From contig JAUYGZ010000003.1 of the NCBI GenBank assembly GCA_030690415.1, positions 124,001 to 188,000 on the forward strand: 64,000 nt of DNA. Reading direction: 5' to 3'. Made by a program: the position numbers and the translations under genes. This DNA is from a bacterium. Its GTDB lineage: Bacteria > Patescibacteriota > Gracilibacteria > JAUYGZ01. Below the pieces are notes generated by a model. That model saw only the letters and a list, made by a program, of their open reading frames with translations, ran no database searches and had not been told where the DNA came from. This document shows positions 53,123 through 63,807 of the stretch, one piece after another. Position 1 is the stretch's first letter. Each line of letters begins with the position of its first letter.

Positions 53123-53548
53123 TTATTTCGCCTTCACCTTCTCCAGCACTTTCATTTGATGAACCATGGCGATTTTCTCCGTCTCCAGGTACTTGATCTG
53201 AAAGTCATTGAGGTCAGCACCGGCAGCAAGCTTTTCATTGATAAATTCCAGATAGTGTTTGGCGGTCTTGTATTCAATATCTTTTTGTTCTTTGCAAGAA
53301 TAACAGAGCAATTGAGCTGAGTTGTGTTCCACAGAGAAGAAGAGAATACCTTGCTGGACGAGGTATTGCAGCTCACTTTGGGCGTTCCGGATATCCAGTC
53401 GACTGAAGAGGATTGATCCGGTGAGTGAAGCGTGATGAGGGTATATTTCCATCTCACCACCTTCGGTGTTAACCTTGATCGAGTTTACCTCCTGAGAAAG
53501 GATCTCAGCTTCCGGCGTGCGGACGGAGAGGTGAAAGGTATCGGCCAT
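53123..53548 (-). CDS. atpC: ATP synthase F1 epsilon subunit
   Basis: FHLSVRTPEAEILSQEVNSIKVNTEGGEMEIYPHHASLTG; start moved to 53548. Confidence 0.9.
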   Translation of the reverse strand: MADTFHLSVRTPEAEILSQEVNSIKVNTEGGEMEIYPHHASLTGSILFSRLDIRNAQSELQYLVQQGILFFSVEHNSAQLLCYSCKEQKDIEYKTAKHYLEFINEKLAAGADLNDFQIKYLETEKIAMVHQMKVLEKVKAK

Positions 53549-53570
53549 GGAAGAAGGTAAAGTATAAATT

Positions 53571-53622
53571 GTCCGCCAGAGGTGCCAGTCCGACAGTCTG
53601 GCGGGGGTCCGCCTCTGGTGGA
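53571..53622. repeat. Hairpin/REP-like palindrome between atpD and atpC
   Basis: ccgccagagg...cctctggtgg outer arms and gccag...ctggc inner arms. Confidence 0.6.
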
Positions 53623-53652
53623 TAAAACTTAAAAACTCTGAATGTTTAAGCG

Positions 53653-56080
<2,428 letters not shown>

Positions 56081-56107
56081 GAGAGTCTAAAGGAAAATGA
56101 AAATTTT

Positions 56108-57616
56108 TTACTGAGTGAAGAACTGTTGACACGCTCTGGAAATCCCCTCCTTGATCACTTCCGTGAGATCTTTTTCATCCATAATATTCTTCACGAGTTC
56201 CTTCTTTTCCAGCTCCACATACGTGAGGAATTGTTTGAGCTTTTTTTGAATCTCAGCAGCCTCGACCGCATCGAGGTATCCTCCGGTAGCCGCCGAAAGT
56301 ACCATGACTTCCTGCCACAAGGCATAAGGTGAATTCTGCTTTTGTTTGAAAGATTCCACGATTCGACGTCCGCGGGTTAGGGTTTTTTTGGTTGCTTCAT
56401 CCAGGTCAGAAGCAAATTGAGAAAAGGCTTCCAGCTCGTAGTACTGAGAAAGTTCCAGCTTTACCGTACCGGAGATTTTTTTCATAATTTTGGTCTGAGC
56501 CGATCCTCCCACTCGAGAGACGGAAATACCGACATTAATGGCAGGACGGATTCCTCGGTTGAAGAGATCGGTTTCCAAAAAAATCTGACCATCGGTGATG
56601 GAAATGACGTTCGTCGGAATATAAGCCGAAACATCTCCTGCCTGGGTCTCAATAATCGGTAAAGCCGTAATACTTCCTCCACCATGGTTTTCATTCAGCT
56701 TAGCCGCTCGCTCGAGCAGTCTGGAATGCAGATAAAAGACATCCCCGGGGTAGGCTTCACGTCCGGGAGGTCGTCGAAGGAGGAGAGACATTTCACGGTA
56801 AGCAACGGCGTGCTTAGATAGGTCATCATATATGATCAGACATTCTTTGCCTTTATCCATAAAATATTCGGCAATGGCCGATCCGGCATAAGGAGCAAGA
56901 AATTGCATGACCGCTGATTCAGAGGCTCCAGCCGCGACGACCAGAGAGTAGTCGAGAGCACCATGTGCCCGGAGGGTTTCGTAGACCTGAGCAGTCTTGG
57001 ATTCACGCTGTCCGATCGAAACGTAGATACAGATGATGTCCTGCCCCTTCTGATTCAAAATAGTATCGATAGCGACAGTGGTTTTCCCCGTCTGACGATC
57101 ACCAATGATCAGCTCACGTTGACCTCGGCCAATGGGGACCAGGGAGTCGATGGAAATAATTCCGGTCTGGACAGGGGTATTGACAGACTTTCGGGCAATA
57201 ACACCCGGGGCGATCTTTTCATGCTCATAGTGAGCATCCGCTTTCAGGTCTGCTCCACCATCGATCGGGGCTCCCAGGGCATTGACCACACGTCCAATAT
57301 TAGCCTCAGAGACGGGCATTTGTAGAAAGTGCCCATTGGATTCAACGAAAAGTCCTTCCTTGACACCTTCACCGGACTGGAGGACGAGCGCGAAGGCCTG
57401 GTCCTTTTCCAGATTCATGACCAGAGCCTGGTTTGAAGTACCCTGTACAGTGACCAATTCCCCCATTCGGAGATCCGAAAGACCTTTGATCTGAATAACT
57501 CCATCCTTAAACGACGTAATGACGCCGAAACGACCTTCGTCAGAGCCCTTTTTTTGTTCCTTAAAGAGAGCTTCGGAGATCGTGTCGAGAAAGGAGGTGA
57601 GGGTTTGTTCGGACAT
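56108..57616 (-). CDS. atpA: ATP synthase F1 alpha subunit
   Basis: [47 protein letters not shown]. Confidence 0.96.
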
Positions 57617-57620
57617 AAAA

Positions 57621-57648
57621 GGTTGAGGGTTAAGAGTTAAGGGTTGAG
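57621..57648 (-). repeat. Heptameric tract upstream of atpA
   Basis: GGTTGAG GGTTAAG AGTTAAG GGTTGAG (plus strand), four in-register units. Confidence 0.7.
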
Positions 57649-57651
57649 AGA

Positions 57652-58317
57652 CTAAACGAGTTCTTTGAGGCGATGGATCGCTTGTATGCGTGAGAACCAG
57701 GATCGGTCCACCACCTTGCCATCGATGAAGAATCGGATTCCTCCGATGAGCTGGGCATTGATGCTGAAGGCGACAAAGCTTTTCGGAAGCTTCAGCCCGA
57801 AATGACGGCGAATGGCATCCTTGGTTTCACGGTCGCATTCGATAGGACTCTGCGTGAGGACACGCGGGCTCTTGAAAAGAGCTTGAAGAAAGACAACAAT
57901 CTCTTCTGTCATTTCCTGAACAGAGTAGAGAGAAATGAAGTATCGCAGTTCGGCCATGAAAGCCGCGCCATGTGGCAGGAGTTGATCAAGTTTTTTTCGT
58001 CGTTCTGTTGTAGTGGATCGATAGAAGTCCTTATCCAGTTGGTCAAAAATGAGTGAAAATTCCTCAACGAAAAAAACGCCAAGGGATTTTAGCAGATTAC
58101 TGCCTGAAAAGTCCTCTGAATTACTCAGTATTTTTATCGTCGTGCCAAGATCATTCACGAAGCTGGATTCGGTCTCCCGGGATAGATGACGCGCGATGAT
58201 CTTGGATCCGATCATCTGCTCAGCTTTTTCCGCATTCGGGGCACTGAAGAATGTTCTCTCTTTTTTGAGAAAATGAATGATGTCTTTTATGAGCGCTGAT
58301 GTGAGATCAGGAATCAT
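57652..58317 (-). CDS. atpH: ATP synthase F1 delta subunit
   Basis: Operon position; C-terminal [31 protein letters not shown]. Confidence 0.85.
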
Positions 58318-58320
58318 GCT

Positions 58321-58818
58321 TTAGGATTTATATGTTTTCCAGGCATCGGCAACAGAGTTTTTCACGACGTCCTGAGGGATATTATTCGAAACAACGTGAA
58401 GGACAACTTTCTCAATGAGTTCGATGGTCTGCTTTTCCGCGGACTTGAGGATCCCTCTTTTTTCCTCATCGACAATGCTTCGTACCTCTTCGATCATCCT
58501 GGTCTTTTTAAGCTCAAGACTTTCCTCCTGTTCCTTCCGACGAATTTCCATTTCCTTTTGGAGATCAGACATTTGAGACTCCATATCAGCGCGAAGCTTC
58601 TCTTTTTCTTCATCAGCATTTTTTTTCTCAGCCAAAAACTCATTCTTGATTTTTTCGGCTTGGGCAAGATTATCTGTGATCGTCTTGCGCCGCTCATCGA
58701 GCATTTTCAGGACGGGACCTGTAAAGAAATAGGCCAAAATAACGGCCAGAAGGCCGAAGTTGACGACATAAACGATAATGCTATGCCAATCGATACCAAG
58801 TTTCGCGAAGATTTCCAT
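58321..58818 (-). CDS. atpF: ATP synthase F0 b subunit
   Basis: N-terminal TM then long charged helix; PVLKMLDERRKTITDNLAQAEKIK. Confidence 0.93.
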   Translation of the reverse strand: MEIFAKLGIDWHSIIVYVVNFGLLAVILAYFFTGPVLKMLDERRKTITDNLAQAEKIKNEFLAEKKNADEEKEKLRADMESQMSDLQKEMEIRRKEQEESLELKKTRMIEEVRSIVDEEKRGILKSAEKQTIELIEKVVLHVVSNNIPQDVVKNSVADAWKTYKS

Positions 58819-58862
58819 AAAAAGAGGGAGGGGGGATGAGAAAATGAATGAAGGTCAGGTAT

Positions 58863-59920
<1,058 letters not shown>

Positions 59921-59923
59921 AGG

Positions 59924-60211
59924 CTATTGGAGTGTGGAGAATTTTTTGTAGATCGAGTACTGAGTGAAGATGAAGGAGAGGACGAAACCAACGATGAGGA
60001 GCACGGGACGGGTTCCGAGGTATCGGTCGAGGAGATATCCTCCACCGGCAAAGATTACTAAACCCCCAATGACATAGCCAAAGACGGTCGCGGTGAGCAG
60101 ATAGTGTTTGGAAAACATGAGGTCATAAGCCTTCTTCCCTTCCGAATCCATTCTCCGGCGGATGGGATCGGGATCCACAGGGCTGTGATGAGGGTCTTGC
60201 TCATGCTTCAT
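59924..60211 (-). CDS. AtpI/AtpZ-like F0 accessory protein
   Basis: Two TM helices; first gene of the atp operon; GYVIGGLVIFAGGGYLLDRYLGTRPVLLIVGFVLSF. Confidence 0.75.
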   Translation of the reverse strand: MKHEQDPHHSPVDPDPIRRRMDSEGKKAYDLMFSKHYLLTATVFGYVIGGLVIFAGGGYLLDRYLGTRPVLLIVGFVLSFIFTQYSIYKKFSTLQ

Positions 60212-60671: not shown

Positions 60672-62642
60672 TCAAATCCTCCAAAACCCCTCCAAGACAT
60701 ACCTTCTCTCCAGTTCAGCCAAATCCTCTTCCATCACCCCCATCTTCAGGCCCGAATGCCAGACTTTTGTTCCCCTTACGATCCCCACATGGGAGATATG
60801 CTTCTTTCGGGAGTGAAGGAAGACCAAGTCATCATTCTGCAGTTCATTTCTCTCCACCTTGCCTGAACAAAAGCTCTTCTGATCCTGCGAGTACTTCGGC
60901 AAAAGAATCCCCTTCACCTCCCAAAAGTAGCGTTGGACAAAAGCGGAGCAATCAATCCCCTGCTCGGAATTCCCTCCCCAGCCGTAGGGTGTTCCCTTCC
61001 AGTTTTCAAAAAAGTCTTCAGCATTTGTCGAAGCTTTGTTGGGGAGTTCAAAACTCTCCACCGGACCCATTTCTTCCAGAGAAACCGATTTGGAGAGCCA
61101 TCCTCGGGTCTTATCCGCTTTTTTAACGAGGAAAAAATCACCCTGTTCACCCAAGAGTTTGAGCACTTCACCAGCTTGAACCTCTGTCTGCCGATTGCGG
61201 TCAAGATGTGGTTTTGGAATGGGTTTGCGGAGCAAAGGAGCCGATTCCTTCATCTTCACAAAGCGATCATTCCAGATATCTTTCTCCCGAATTCGGAAAC
61301 CAATGACCACCCGCTCATAAAAATCAATAAAGATATCCTTAAAATGATGTCGGGTAGGGTGATTCCCCCCTTCAAAGGGATTAGAGGGGGCAGAGGCGAC
61401 ATCATCATGCGCATCGTAAGCAGAACCTTTGAACTGAATGCTGGCATAATCCGAGCCCGGATCAATGGCAGTATTTGGGAGATGAGAAAGCAACAGTAAC
61501 AATTCCCCTTCCTCCAGTTCCCGGGCATCGAAGCTTCTCAATCTGAGTTTCCAGTCTTGTCCGTCAAAGGCATAAATGCCTGACTTCAGGGTCTTGGGCG
61601 TTTTCCAGGCTCTATCCTTGGTATTTCTCAAAATAATCTGGCCGAAGAGCTTCCCATCCTTATCCAGGAAATCAAAACGGTGTTCTTTTAAACTCGCGCG
61701 TTCCGCATGGAGCTTGAGAAGGGGTTCACGTTCATTCACCACATCCATGAGGCACTGAAGGCTGATCGAAGCGGTCAAACGGGGGTTGCACTCGATCAGA
61801 TACCACTGCTCTCCATTCCAGATCAGGTCAAGGCCGAAAAAGCCGATGTACCCGACTTCACGAAAAAGAGGACCCTTTTTCTCGAGCTCCTTCCGCAGCT
61901 TCGACAATATCTCATCATTCAAATCAAGAGTGGGGCTGACTCCAACCGTTCCAAACTGAAAATGGTTCCAGACCTTCATGTTCATCATTTGCTGCCAGAG
62001 CGGCCCAAAGGCCATTTTTCCCTGAGCATCCACATAGCCATTGAGAGTATAGGTGTTTCCGGACACAAAACGGCTGATTTTGACCTGAGTCCCCTGGACG
62101 AGTGGGGCGAAGAGCTCATTTCGTTTGGAGAAAAAGGAAGAACTTCCCGCGTGTCCCATCCGACCCTGAACCACTATTTCATCTCCCAGTTCATCATGAT
62201 AGGCGTGATGCTGTTTCTCATCCCAGAGCACAATCCGGTGTTCCGGCATGGGAAGAGCATGTTTTACAGCTAATCCCGCAAAGCTGATTTTATCCTCCAG
62301 CTCTCGGCACACCTTCACATCAGCCGAAACCAGATCCCATCCCTGCTCCTCTATCCATCGCCGAATCTTGTTCGAAGGCTTGAAGACGAGAAACTTCAGA
62401 TCAGCTTTGAGGCTTCGAAGCCAGTTTAGGGTCAGAGCGCGGCTGAGGATGAGGAAAGTACTCCCGGGAATGACCGCTCCGGGGAATTCTTCCTCGAAGC
62501 ATCGGACAGCTGTCCCTTGCTCCCTCATCCAGCTCAGCATATCCGATTGATATGAGCAGAGCACAGTCGCTCCCACAGCTTCAGAGACCCAGAGTGCTCT
62601 GCGGAGGTCGAGGGTGACGTAGATGGTTTTGGAGGGGTTCAT
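60672..62642 (-). CDS. ATP-grasp domain protein fused to SH3-like and NlpC/P60 cysteine peptidase domains
   Basis: ATP-grasp: VGYIGFFGLDLIWNGEQWYLIECNPRLTASISLQ; SH3-like: QAGEVLKLLGEQGDFFLVKKADKTRGWLSKS; NlpC/P60: WKGTPYGWGGNSEQGIDCSAFVQRYF...NDDLVFLHSRKKHISHVGIV. Confidence 0.85.
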   Translation of the reverse strand: MNPSKTIYVTLDLRRALWVSEAVGATVLCSYQSDMLSWMREQGTAVRCFEEEFPGAVIPGSTFLILSRALTLNWLRSLKADLKFLVFKPSNKIRRWIEEQGWDLVSADVKVCRELEDKISFAGLAVKHALPMPEHRIVLWDEKQHHAYHDELGDEIVVQGRMGHAGSSSFFSKRNELFAPLVQGTQVKISRFVSGNTYTLNGYVDAQGKMAFGPLWQQMMNMKVWNHFQFGTVGVSPTLDLNDEILSKLRKELEKKGPLFREVGYIGFFGLDLIWNGEQWYLIECNPRLTASISLQCLMDVVNEREPLLKLHAERASLKEHRFDFLDKDGKLFGQIILRNTKDRAWKTPKTLKSGIYAFDGQDWKLRLRSFDARELEEGELLLLLSHLPNTAIDPGSDYASIQFKGSAYDAHDDVASAPSNPFEGGNHPTRHHFKDIFIDFYERVVIGFRIREKDIWNDRFVKMKESAPLLRKPIPKPHLDRNRQTEVQAGEVLKLLGEQGDFFLVKKADKTRGWLSKSVSLEEMGPVESFELPNKASTNAEDFFENWKGTPYGWGGNSEQGIDCSAFVQRYFWEVKGILLPKYSQDQKSFCSGKVERNELQNDDLVFLHSRKKHISHVGIVRGTKVWHSGLKMGVMEEDLAELERRYVLEGFWRI

Positions 62643-63562
62643 AATGACAAAAATTCTTCCCAAAGCCTGTCCATATCCTGAAAGGTCTCGGCCCTCCTTG
62701 GCGAAACAAGTTCAGCCTTCGGCCATTTTTTTCCGGAAAAAATACAGACGAGGGATTCATAGCGGTCTTTCAGTCGGAGAGCAATGGCGAAACTGCAGAC
62801 ACCCTCCCAAGAAGTTTCAAGGTGGTTTTCGAGCAGTACCCGCTCGGCCTCCTGACGATCTACATCGGTCACGTACCAGGCATCGCCTCCGCTCTTTTGA
62901 ATCAGCCCGAGCAACTCTTTCTTTCGAGGAGTTTCGGACAGCCCAATTCCAAATTCCGCTTCTGTCGGGACTTGCTCAGGATGTAATTCCCTGACGATCG
63001 AACAGCTTTTCCCACTCTGGACCAGATGCAGAGCGGGTAACTTCAACCCTTTCGATTCGTAAGCTCTCATCAGACCCAAGCTGGAAGTGCCTGAAGTGGC
63101 AAAGTTGACGATGGCCTTTGCCTGTTGGGCCTGTACAATCAGTTCATCGCCGAGTGAGGCATAGGCATCAAGAGCTAATGCGTCTCCTGAGATCCGAGGG
63201 AAAGGCACCTTGTACCGCTTAGCCAGATACTTCGCGAAGCGAAGCGGACGAGAGCTCAACACGACAAATGCCCCTTCTTTCTCAAGTTGAGCGGCTTTGT
63301 TCAGATCTCCCCGATCGGACATCAGGCAAAAGACTGTGATGCCCATTTTCCGACCATAGTGCGCGGCAGTGATGCCGGCATTTCCGGTCGTTGACAAAAC
63401 CAGAGTGAAAATCCCCTCTCCCTGATACTTTTTCAGAAGTGGCTTTAGGTACCGAAATTTATGCGATCCCGCATCGGACTGGTCTTCTCTCTTGATGAAA
63501 ACCGAAGCGAAAGGGGAATCGGCAGAGAATGAGATGAGAGGCGTTATACTAGGGGTGTTCAA
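62639..63562 (-). CDS. PLP-dependent fold-type II enzyme (threonine synthase/cysteine synthase-like), TTG start
   Basis: KREDQSDAGSHKFRYLKPLL (PLP lysine); LSTTGNAGITAAHYGRKMGI; NFATSGTSSLGLMRAYE; ATGA overlap with the next gene. Confidence 0.82.
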   Translation of the reverse strand: MNTPSITPLISFSADSPFASVFIKREDQSDAGSHKFRYLKPLLKKYQGEGIFTLVLSTTGNAGITAAHYGRKMGITVFCLMSDRGDLNKAAQLEKEGAFVVLSSRPLRFAKYLAKRYKVPFPRISGDALALDAYASLGDELIVQAQQAKAIVNFATSGTSSLGLMRAYESKGLKLPALHLVQSGKSCSIVRELHPEQVPTEAEFGIGLSETPRKKELLGLIQKSGGDAWYVTDVDRQEAERVLLENHLETSWEGVCSFAIALRLKDRYESLVCIFSGKKWPKAELVSPRRAETFQDMDRLWEEFLSL

Positions 63563-63651: not shown

Positions 63652-63807
63652 ATGCCACCAATCGTACTGTGTCCCGACTGTAATTTTGAAATAGATCTCG
63701 ATGGAGGAGCCATTGGTGACTATTTTGAATGCGATATCTGTGCCTGTGAACTTATGGTGATATCCATGGATCCTCCGAAGGTGGAGGTGCTTGATGAAGA
63801 GAAATAA
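63652..63807 (+). CDS. LysW-like small zinc-ribbon protein (51 aa; absent from the supplied ORF track)
   Basis: MPPIVLCPDCNFEIDLDGGAIGDYFECDICACELMVISMDPPKVEVLDEEK: CPxC...CxxC plus EL-V--xDPxxVE as in LysW. Confidence 0.72.
   Translation: MPPIVLCPDCNFEIDLDGGAIGDYFECDICACELMVISMDPPKVEVLDEEK

Follow-up and report, generated by a model that had tools for sequence, protein, structure and literature searches.

A cytoplasmic ATP-grasp–NlpC/P60 fusion protein as two parts of a candidate cell wall module that may stand in for MurI in Patescibacteria

Introduction

An ATP-grasp ligase that makes an amide bond and a papain-like amidase that breaks it are joined in one cytoplasmic protein in two described systems, the E. 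coli glutathionylspermidine synthetase/amidase (Gss) and the trypanothione synthetase-amidase (TryS) (PMC10318531, PMC2784880). These enzymes possess an N-terminal CHAP amidase and a ligase of another ATP-grasp family than the one described below, act on a polyamine-glutathione substrate, and have no link to Mur ligases. A cytoplasmic SH3b and NlpC/P60 pairing furnishes YkfC/dipeptidyl-peptidase VI, with a Cys-His-His triad and an S1 pocket for gamma-D-Glu; YkfC Asp256 reads the free amine of L-Ala, and an acidic residue at this position defines the recycling subfamily (PMC2954226). The protein described here shares these features with YkfC, but it lacks the Asp256 equivalent and is fused to an ATP-grasp domain.

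D-Glu is regarded as a universal occupant of position 2 in the peptidoglycan stem peptide, and MurI as an almost indispensable enzyme. Alternatives to MurI have nevertheless been described. The MurD2/MurL system of Xanthomonas employs a variant MurD without a PLP enzyme, ATP-grasp or NlpC partner, and two residues, Glu197 and Arg358, at the positions of D182 and K348 in E. coli MurD, switch MurD2 to L-Glu (PMC8788868). In Chlamydia, the gap left by the missing MurI is filled by DapF acting as a glutamate racemase, a PLP-independent isomerase (PMC5885031). Mur-type ligases adjoining a non-Ddl ATP-grasp enzyme are found in the pseudomurein gene cluster, which builds an archaeal wall polymer; in the description consulted, no NlpC/P60 or PLP enzyme is noted (PMC11915815). 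Alternatives to MurI are thus known as a kind, while the four-part combination reported here was not found described in the open-licence literature searched. We encountered it through a fusion protein, ATP-grasp_3 domain first and NlpC/P60 domain last, encoded in the window, the 64,000-nucleotide stretch of a Gracilibacteria-class genome analyzed here.

Results

The fusion gene occupies positions 60672–62642 on the minus strand, as identified from its open reading frame, Pfam matches, an AF2 model and homologous fusions in three other genomes. The initial annotation had placed the gene correctly but gave a length of 657 residues; read from the ATG at 62642, the open reading frame encodes 656 residues plus the stop codon. 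A TTG is present in the same frame at 62663; the ATG is favored as the start because it shares an ATGA (62642–62639) with the stop codon that ends the PLP-enzyme gene upstream. Directly downstream of the fusion gene is a co-directional ATP-synthase operon (53123–60211), a neighborhood preserved in one of the genomes carrying a homologous fusion (G001). The AF2 model is confident (pLDDT 87.3, pTM 0.76) and poor only at residues 411–432. No signal peptide or transmembrane helix was detected, the maximal 19-residue hydropathy being 1.23 overall and 0.89 within the first 45 residues, in agreement with the original suggestion that both catalytic domains appear to be cytoplasmic. The co-occurrence of ATP-grasp, SH3-like and NlpC/P60 segments in one chain, likewise noted at the outset, was reproduced by Pfam searches, with the SH3_3 match falling under its cut-off.

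The ATP-grasp region comprises residues 1–330 (61653–62642, minus strand), within which residues 117–292 match ATP-grasp_3 (PF02655; E=1e-7, 32.5 bits against a cut-off of 23.2), placing the domain in the ATP-grasp superfamily; its fold matches biotin carboxylase/PurK-type ATP-grasp enzymes. In an alignment with nine relatives, E116-D117-K118, G163..A165-G166, D272 and the E, N and R of the metal/phosphate motif E284-C-N286-P-R288 (61779–61793, minus strand) are invariant. A weak match to the gamma-glutamyl ligase MfnD was recovered for the window protein (5e-6) and for an unfused homolog in genome G015 (3e-7), and Pfam and NCBIfam searches of the window protein returned neither CHAP nor GSP_synth, setting it apart from Gss. 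No match to the D-Ala-D-Ala ligase profile Dala_Dala_lig_C was found by Pfam in the window protein. The window genome possesses no Ddl, which made a replacement Ddl an attractive assignment for this domain; we rejected this assignment in its general form, since the module and a Ddl-type gene are found together in locus L145 and in the f8/f14 genomes. The four genomes carrying the fusion (the window genome, G000, and G001–G003) and the f6/f7 genomes encode MurC, MurE and MurF with no Ddl detected to supply D-Ala-D-Ala for their MurF. A distinct system occurs in other genomes of the Gracilibacteria class, in which runs of two to four consecutive ATP-grasp genes (L038:2261-9859, L041:2833-10435, L043:2511-8742) are followed by genes that appear, by inspection, to be of the diaminopimelate-decarboxylase/alanine-racemase type.

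A linker follows the ATP-grasp region (residues 331–470; 61233–61652, minus strand), delineated from the AF2 pLDDT profile as a beta-rich extension and then the poorly predicted residues 411–432; alignment detects the extension in the unfused ATP-grasp protein of G015 as well. The SH3-like domain (residues 477–525; 61068–61214, minus strand) is weak but real: SH3_3 matches residues 483–519 with E=3e-5 and 24.4 bits, under the cut-off of 27, and RxRQTQ and D-x-(T/S)-x-GW are conserved in separately encoded NlpC proteins. The NlpC/P60 domain (residues 541–656; 60675–61022, minus strand) matches NLPC_P60 (PF00877, clan CA C40) over residues 550–625 with E=6e-19 and 68.4 bits against a cut-off of 23, and is a member of that family, with PDB profile matches to MepS and dipeptidyl-peptidase VI. 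Catalytic Cys565 (GIDCSAF; 60948–60950), catalytic His618 (SHVGI; 60789–60791) and the third catalytic residue, His629 (VWHSG; 60756–60758), all on the minus strand, are invariant in the NlpC alignment. No catalytic residue is missing from either the ATP-grasp or the NlpC domain, and by conservation both look active. This is the sole NlpC/P60 domain of the 1.45-Mb window genome.

Homologous fusions are present in three other genera spanning two families (G001, 50% identity; G002, 52%; G003, 34%), so that the architecture is neither due to chance nor an assembly artifact. It is uncommon, having been seen only in these three genomes and the window genome. The addition of the ATP-grasp domain had been singled out as unusual, which holds for this architecture; the pairing of an ATP-grasp with a papain-like amidase has precedent in Gss and TryS.

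The fusion itself proved to be only the tip of a module of four genes, the parts of which are usually separate. Upstream of the fusion gene and on the same strand are genes for a PLP-dependent enzyme and a MurD-type ligase. Other families of the class carry separate adjoining genes in the order NlpC/P60–MurD–PLP enzyme–ATP-grasp (G009, G015, G021, G030, G033, G039, G260 and others); in-frame TGA codons in genomes of this class, together with relatives labeled Gracilibacteria, assign the window to the Gracilibacteria branch of Patescibacteria. In genome G257, MurD and the PLP enzyme (PALP) are fused in a 788-residue protein, and in L161, a metagenome-assembled genome (MAG) labeled Anaerolineae, PALP and ATP-grasp are fused in a 905-residue protein. 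Together with the fusion in the window, these make three kinds of fusion that connect the four parts one to the next, arguing that the four act together. Catalytic residues are intact in all four.

To map the module, genome contigs were scanned with the window protein alone, which gave no matches; when GTDB genomes were searched with an alignment of the PLP enzyme, 80 loci were recovered, nearly all from Patescibacteria. The ATP-grasp gene was adjacent or fused to PALP at 63 of the 71 loci that left space for it, and an NlpC/P60 protein lay near PALP in 37 of the 44 with enough upstream sequence. At many loci the NlpC/P60 protein is divergent and shows DCS and His motifs; profile comparison relates it to the module family at a probability of 94%. 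The variant MurD was near PALP in 16 of 44 loci and absent nearby in the other 28, as in Shapirobacteria. In several lineages (L133, L209, L145), the module is inside the dcw cluster, with mraY on one side and ftsW/murG on the other; with names assigned partly by sequence inspection, the order reads MraY–amidohydrolase–NlpC–MurD–PALP–ATP-grasp–FtsW–MurG–MurC at L133 and MraY–NlpC-like–PALP–ATP-grasp–FtsW–MurG–FtsA–FtsZ at L209. In Paceibacterota loci, the gene of the D-aminoacylase-like amidohydrolase (L133:1542-3119) separates mraY from the NlpC gene of the module. Module parts also occur in MAGs labeled Anaerolineae and Thermoleophilia (L161, L148, L188, L202), reflecting either transfer beyond Patescibacteria or misbinned contigs.

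We lean, by a slight balance of probability, toward the fusion constituting half of a four-part cell wall module of Patescibacteria that supplies and installs stem residue 2 without MurI. The initial annotation had offered editing, recycling or synthesis of a precursor; the context, with the sole MurD of the genome adjacent and the dcw cluster hosting the module in relatives, speaks for synthesis, while recycling is disfavored by the NlpC pocket, as detailed below.

The variant MurD, 483 residues in full, enters the window with its C-terminal part (63752–64000, minus strand), the complete gene (L002:7753-9204) running past the window end. It scores 243.9 bits against TIGR01087, above the cut-off of 211.95, with the N-terminal domain left outside the match, which begins at residue 120; that domain is divergent, with a conserved QxWxxYxxN where an SPGI segment is usual. 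This is the only TIGR01087 match among the four Mur ligases of the window genome, the others reading, by inspection, as MurC, MurE and MurF. Lys348 and Thr321 of E. coli MurD bind one carboxylate group of D-Glu-type ligands, and the other is bound by Ser415 together with the Phe422 amide (PMC3527612). In that numbering, E157, H183, K198, R302, D317, T321 and K348 are conserved wherever a variant covers them, whereas Ser415 is found in none of the 29 module MurDs with the region, being replaced by Trp (8), Tyr (6, including the window genome), His (5), Phe (5), Gly (4) or Ala (1). The serine is present in 27/27 canonical MurDs of Patescibacteria that aligned correctly; three more canonical loci, which gave wrong ORFs, were left out. 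With Thr321 and Lys348 kept and Ser415 lost, the contacts to the alpha-carboxylate would remain while the side-chain contact is altered; on this alignment, the side-chain pocket of the module MurD is remodeled. Both published switch residues rule out an assignment as MurD2/MurL, Asn/Asp and Lys taking the place of Glu197 and Arg358.

A remodeled side-chain pocket with its alpha-carboxylate contacts intact could mean that residue 2 is an amino acid other than glutamate, for instance a D- or beta-substituted one, made by the PLP enzyme and added by the variant MurD, with the ATP-grasp and NlpC parts attaching and trimming a further residue; the fusion of MurD to PALP, and the many amino acids made by this PLP fold family, fit such a scheme. 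We nonetheless hold it to be unlikely: the NlpC S1 pocket suited to gamma-D-Glu is retained, MurE, which extends the stem from D-Glu, is present, and strict conservation of D-Glu at position 2 has been described for bacteria (PMC5885031). As a separate observation, MurE of the DAP-adding type typically has a DNPR motif, which the MurE proteins of this class lack, carrying DDEPYTEDP, DDSFTEDR and similar segments instead (L074:8628-9980, L077:9105-10460, L083:8648-9937, L085:7162-8439), and residue 3 of the stem may therefore be unusual too.

The proposed replacement of MurI was queried in a sample of 389 genomes of the phylum, with thresholds of E<=1e-28 for the module PLP enzyme and E<=1e-15 for MurI (TIGR00067). 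The PLP enzyme was detected in 34 genomes, MurI in 120 and MurC in 311, and all 34 module genomes were MurC-positive. MurI occurred in none of these 34, as compared to 116 of the 277 MurC-positive genomes without the PLP enzyme (Fisher P=5.5e-8). At the family level, the 135 families included 19 with the module and 60 with MurI, and the two sets showed no overlap (P=5.5e-6), where families are not fully independent, kinship is handled at this level only, and MAGs can miss genes; the exclusion could partly reflect lineage history. Neither MurI nor the module was found in 161 MurC-positive genomes, which indicates that further routes exist. Asp/Glu-racemase matches in module genomes of the class set are not glutamate racemases: a hidden MurI was dismissed in G009 and G015, whose PF01177 matches are an aspartate/cysteate-type and a hydantoin-racemase-like protein, and in G021, whose match fits no glutamate-racemase model. 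DapF, considered as a source of D-Glu, was absent from the module genomes of the 40-genome class set and was dropped. We consider it probable that the module is a residue-2 module replacing MurI.

The PLP enzyme, a 307-residue fold-type II protein (62639–63562, minus strand; PF00291, E=3e-26; AF2 pLDDT 92.3), carries its PLP lysine, K35, in the segment GSHKFR. Alignment shows K35 and the (S/T)(S/T)GNA phosphate loop to be invariant or nearly so, and the fold match agrees with membership in fold type II. In structure it is closest to threonine synthase, serine dehydratase, cysteine synthase, and serine or aspartate racemase; sequence and fold fit racemase, synthase and dehydratase alike, Foldseek resolving fold class only for this enzyme as for the fusion protein. 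A second, weaker PALP group resides in proteins of ~610–620 residues apart from the module (L120:2705-4567, L121:2861-4681).

The absence of MurI, and the serine and aspartate racemases within the PALP family, would also be accounted for if the PLP enzyme alone were a glutamate racemase feeding free D-Glu to MurD, with the ATP-grasp and NlpC parts making and trimming an unrelated modification of the stem or cross-bridge. A likeness for such a modification is the D-Asp ligase of lactic acid bacteria (Aslfm type), which adds D-Asp onto the stem Lys. Free D-Glu, however, demands no change in the MurD side-chain pocket, and a separate modification does not predict an ATP-grasp gene beside or fused to PALP at the frequency observed; we judge this arrangement improbable.

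Returning to the residue-2 module, the NlpC domains bear on the substrate. In YkfC numbering, the residues of the gamma-D-Glu S1 pocket are kept among 13 module NlpC domains (Tyr226 and Asp237 in all 13, Trp228 in 10, Ser239 and Ser257 in 12 each). At the Asp256 position, none of the 13 has an acidic residue, with N, H or Y present instead. A kept S1 pocket and a non-acidic residue 256 point to a gamma-D-Glu-X substrate whose N-terminal side is not free L-Ala.

Patescibacteria are ultra-small bacteria and often epibionts, and the module could conceivably serve muropeptide scavenging, the cytoplasmic NlpC/P60 cutting imported stem peptides and the ATP-grasp religating the pieces onto precursors. 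Cytoplasmic NlpC/P60 enzymes with such a role exist, as exemplified by YkfC (PMC2954226, PMC9928106). The loss of the Asp256 equivalent argues against YkfC-type recycling, and the location of the module in the de novo dcw cluster, together with a Mur ligase and a PLP enzyme, further makes this reading a distinctly poor prospect. That the fusion is incidental, joining an exported wall hydrolase to an unrelated ATP-grasp enzyme, is hardly credible: SH3 and NlpC pairs are usually secreted, but signal peptides were found neither in the fusion nor in the separate module NlpC proteins, and the same partners recur phylum-wide in three kinds of fusion.

Discussion

The scheme that best fits, being the simplest to give each of the four parts a task and to account for both altered pockets, is one of gamma-protection, its catalytic steps being inferred from linkage, exclusion and residue patterns. 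The ATP-grasp domain would first join the gamma-carboxylate of L-Glu to an amine X, giving gamma-L-Glu-X. The PLP enzyme would then invert the alpha-carbon of the glutamate; it could act on gamma-Glu-X because the free alpha-amine that it needs is still present there. The variant MurD would attach to UDP-MurNAc-L-Ala either gamma-D-Glu-X or the D-residue set free from it, and the NlpC/P60 domain would cleave gamma-D-Glu-X, freeing X and rendering the inversion irreversible. Housing ligase and hydrolase in one protein would channel or balance the addition and removal of X, and protection and deprotection would stay side by side in the fusion, as they do in Gss. The exact order of the four steps is offered tentatively, and we doubt that it is correct in every detail.

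Read as a module, the locus explains an otherwise puzzling ligase-hydrolase fusion. It is possible, at somewhat less than an even chance, that a new route to residue 2, proceeding by gamma-protection, inversion, coupling and deprotection, operates across much of Patescibacteria, or else that residue 2 in these bacteria is not D-Glu. If true, the route would constitute a new alternative beside MurI, MurD2/MurL and DapF and, to our knowledge, the first role of a cytoplasmic NlpC/P60 enzyme in de novo precursor synthesis. How Patescibacteria build their walls, and the identity of residue 2 therein, would thereby become addressable with four small soluble proteins.
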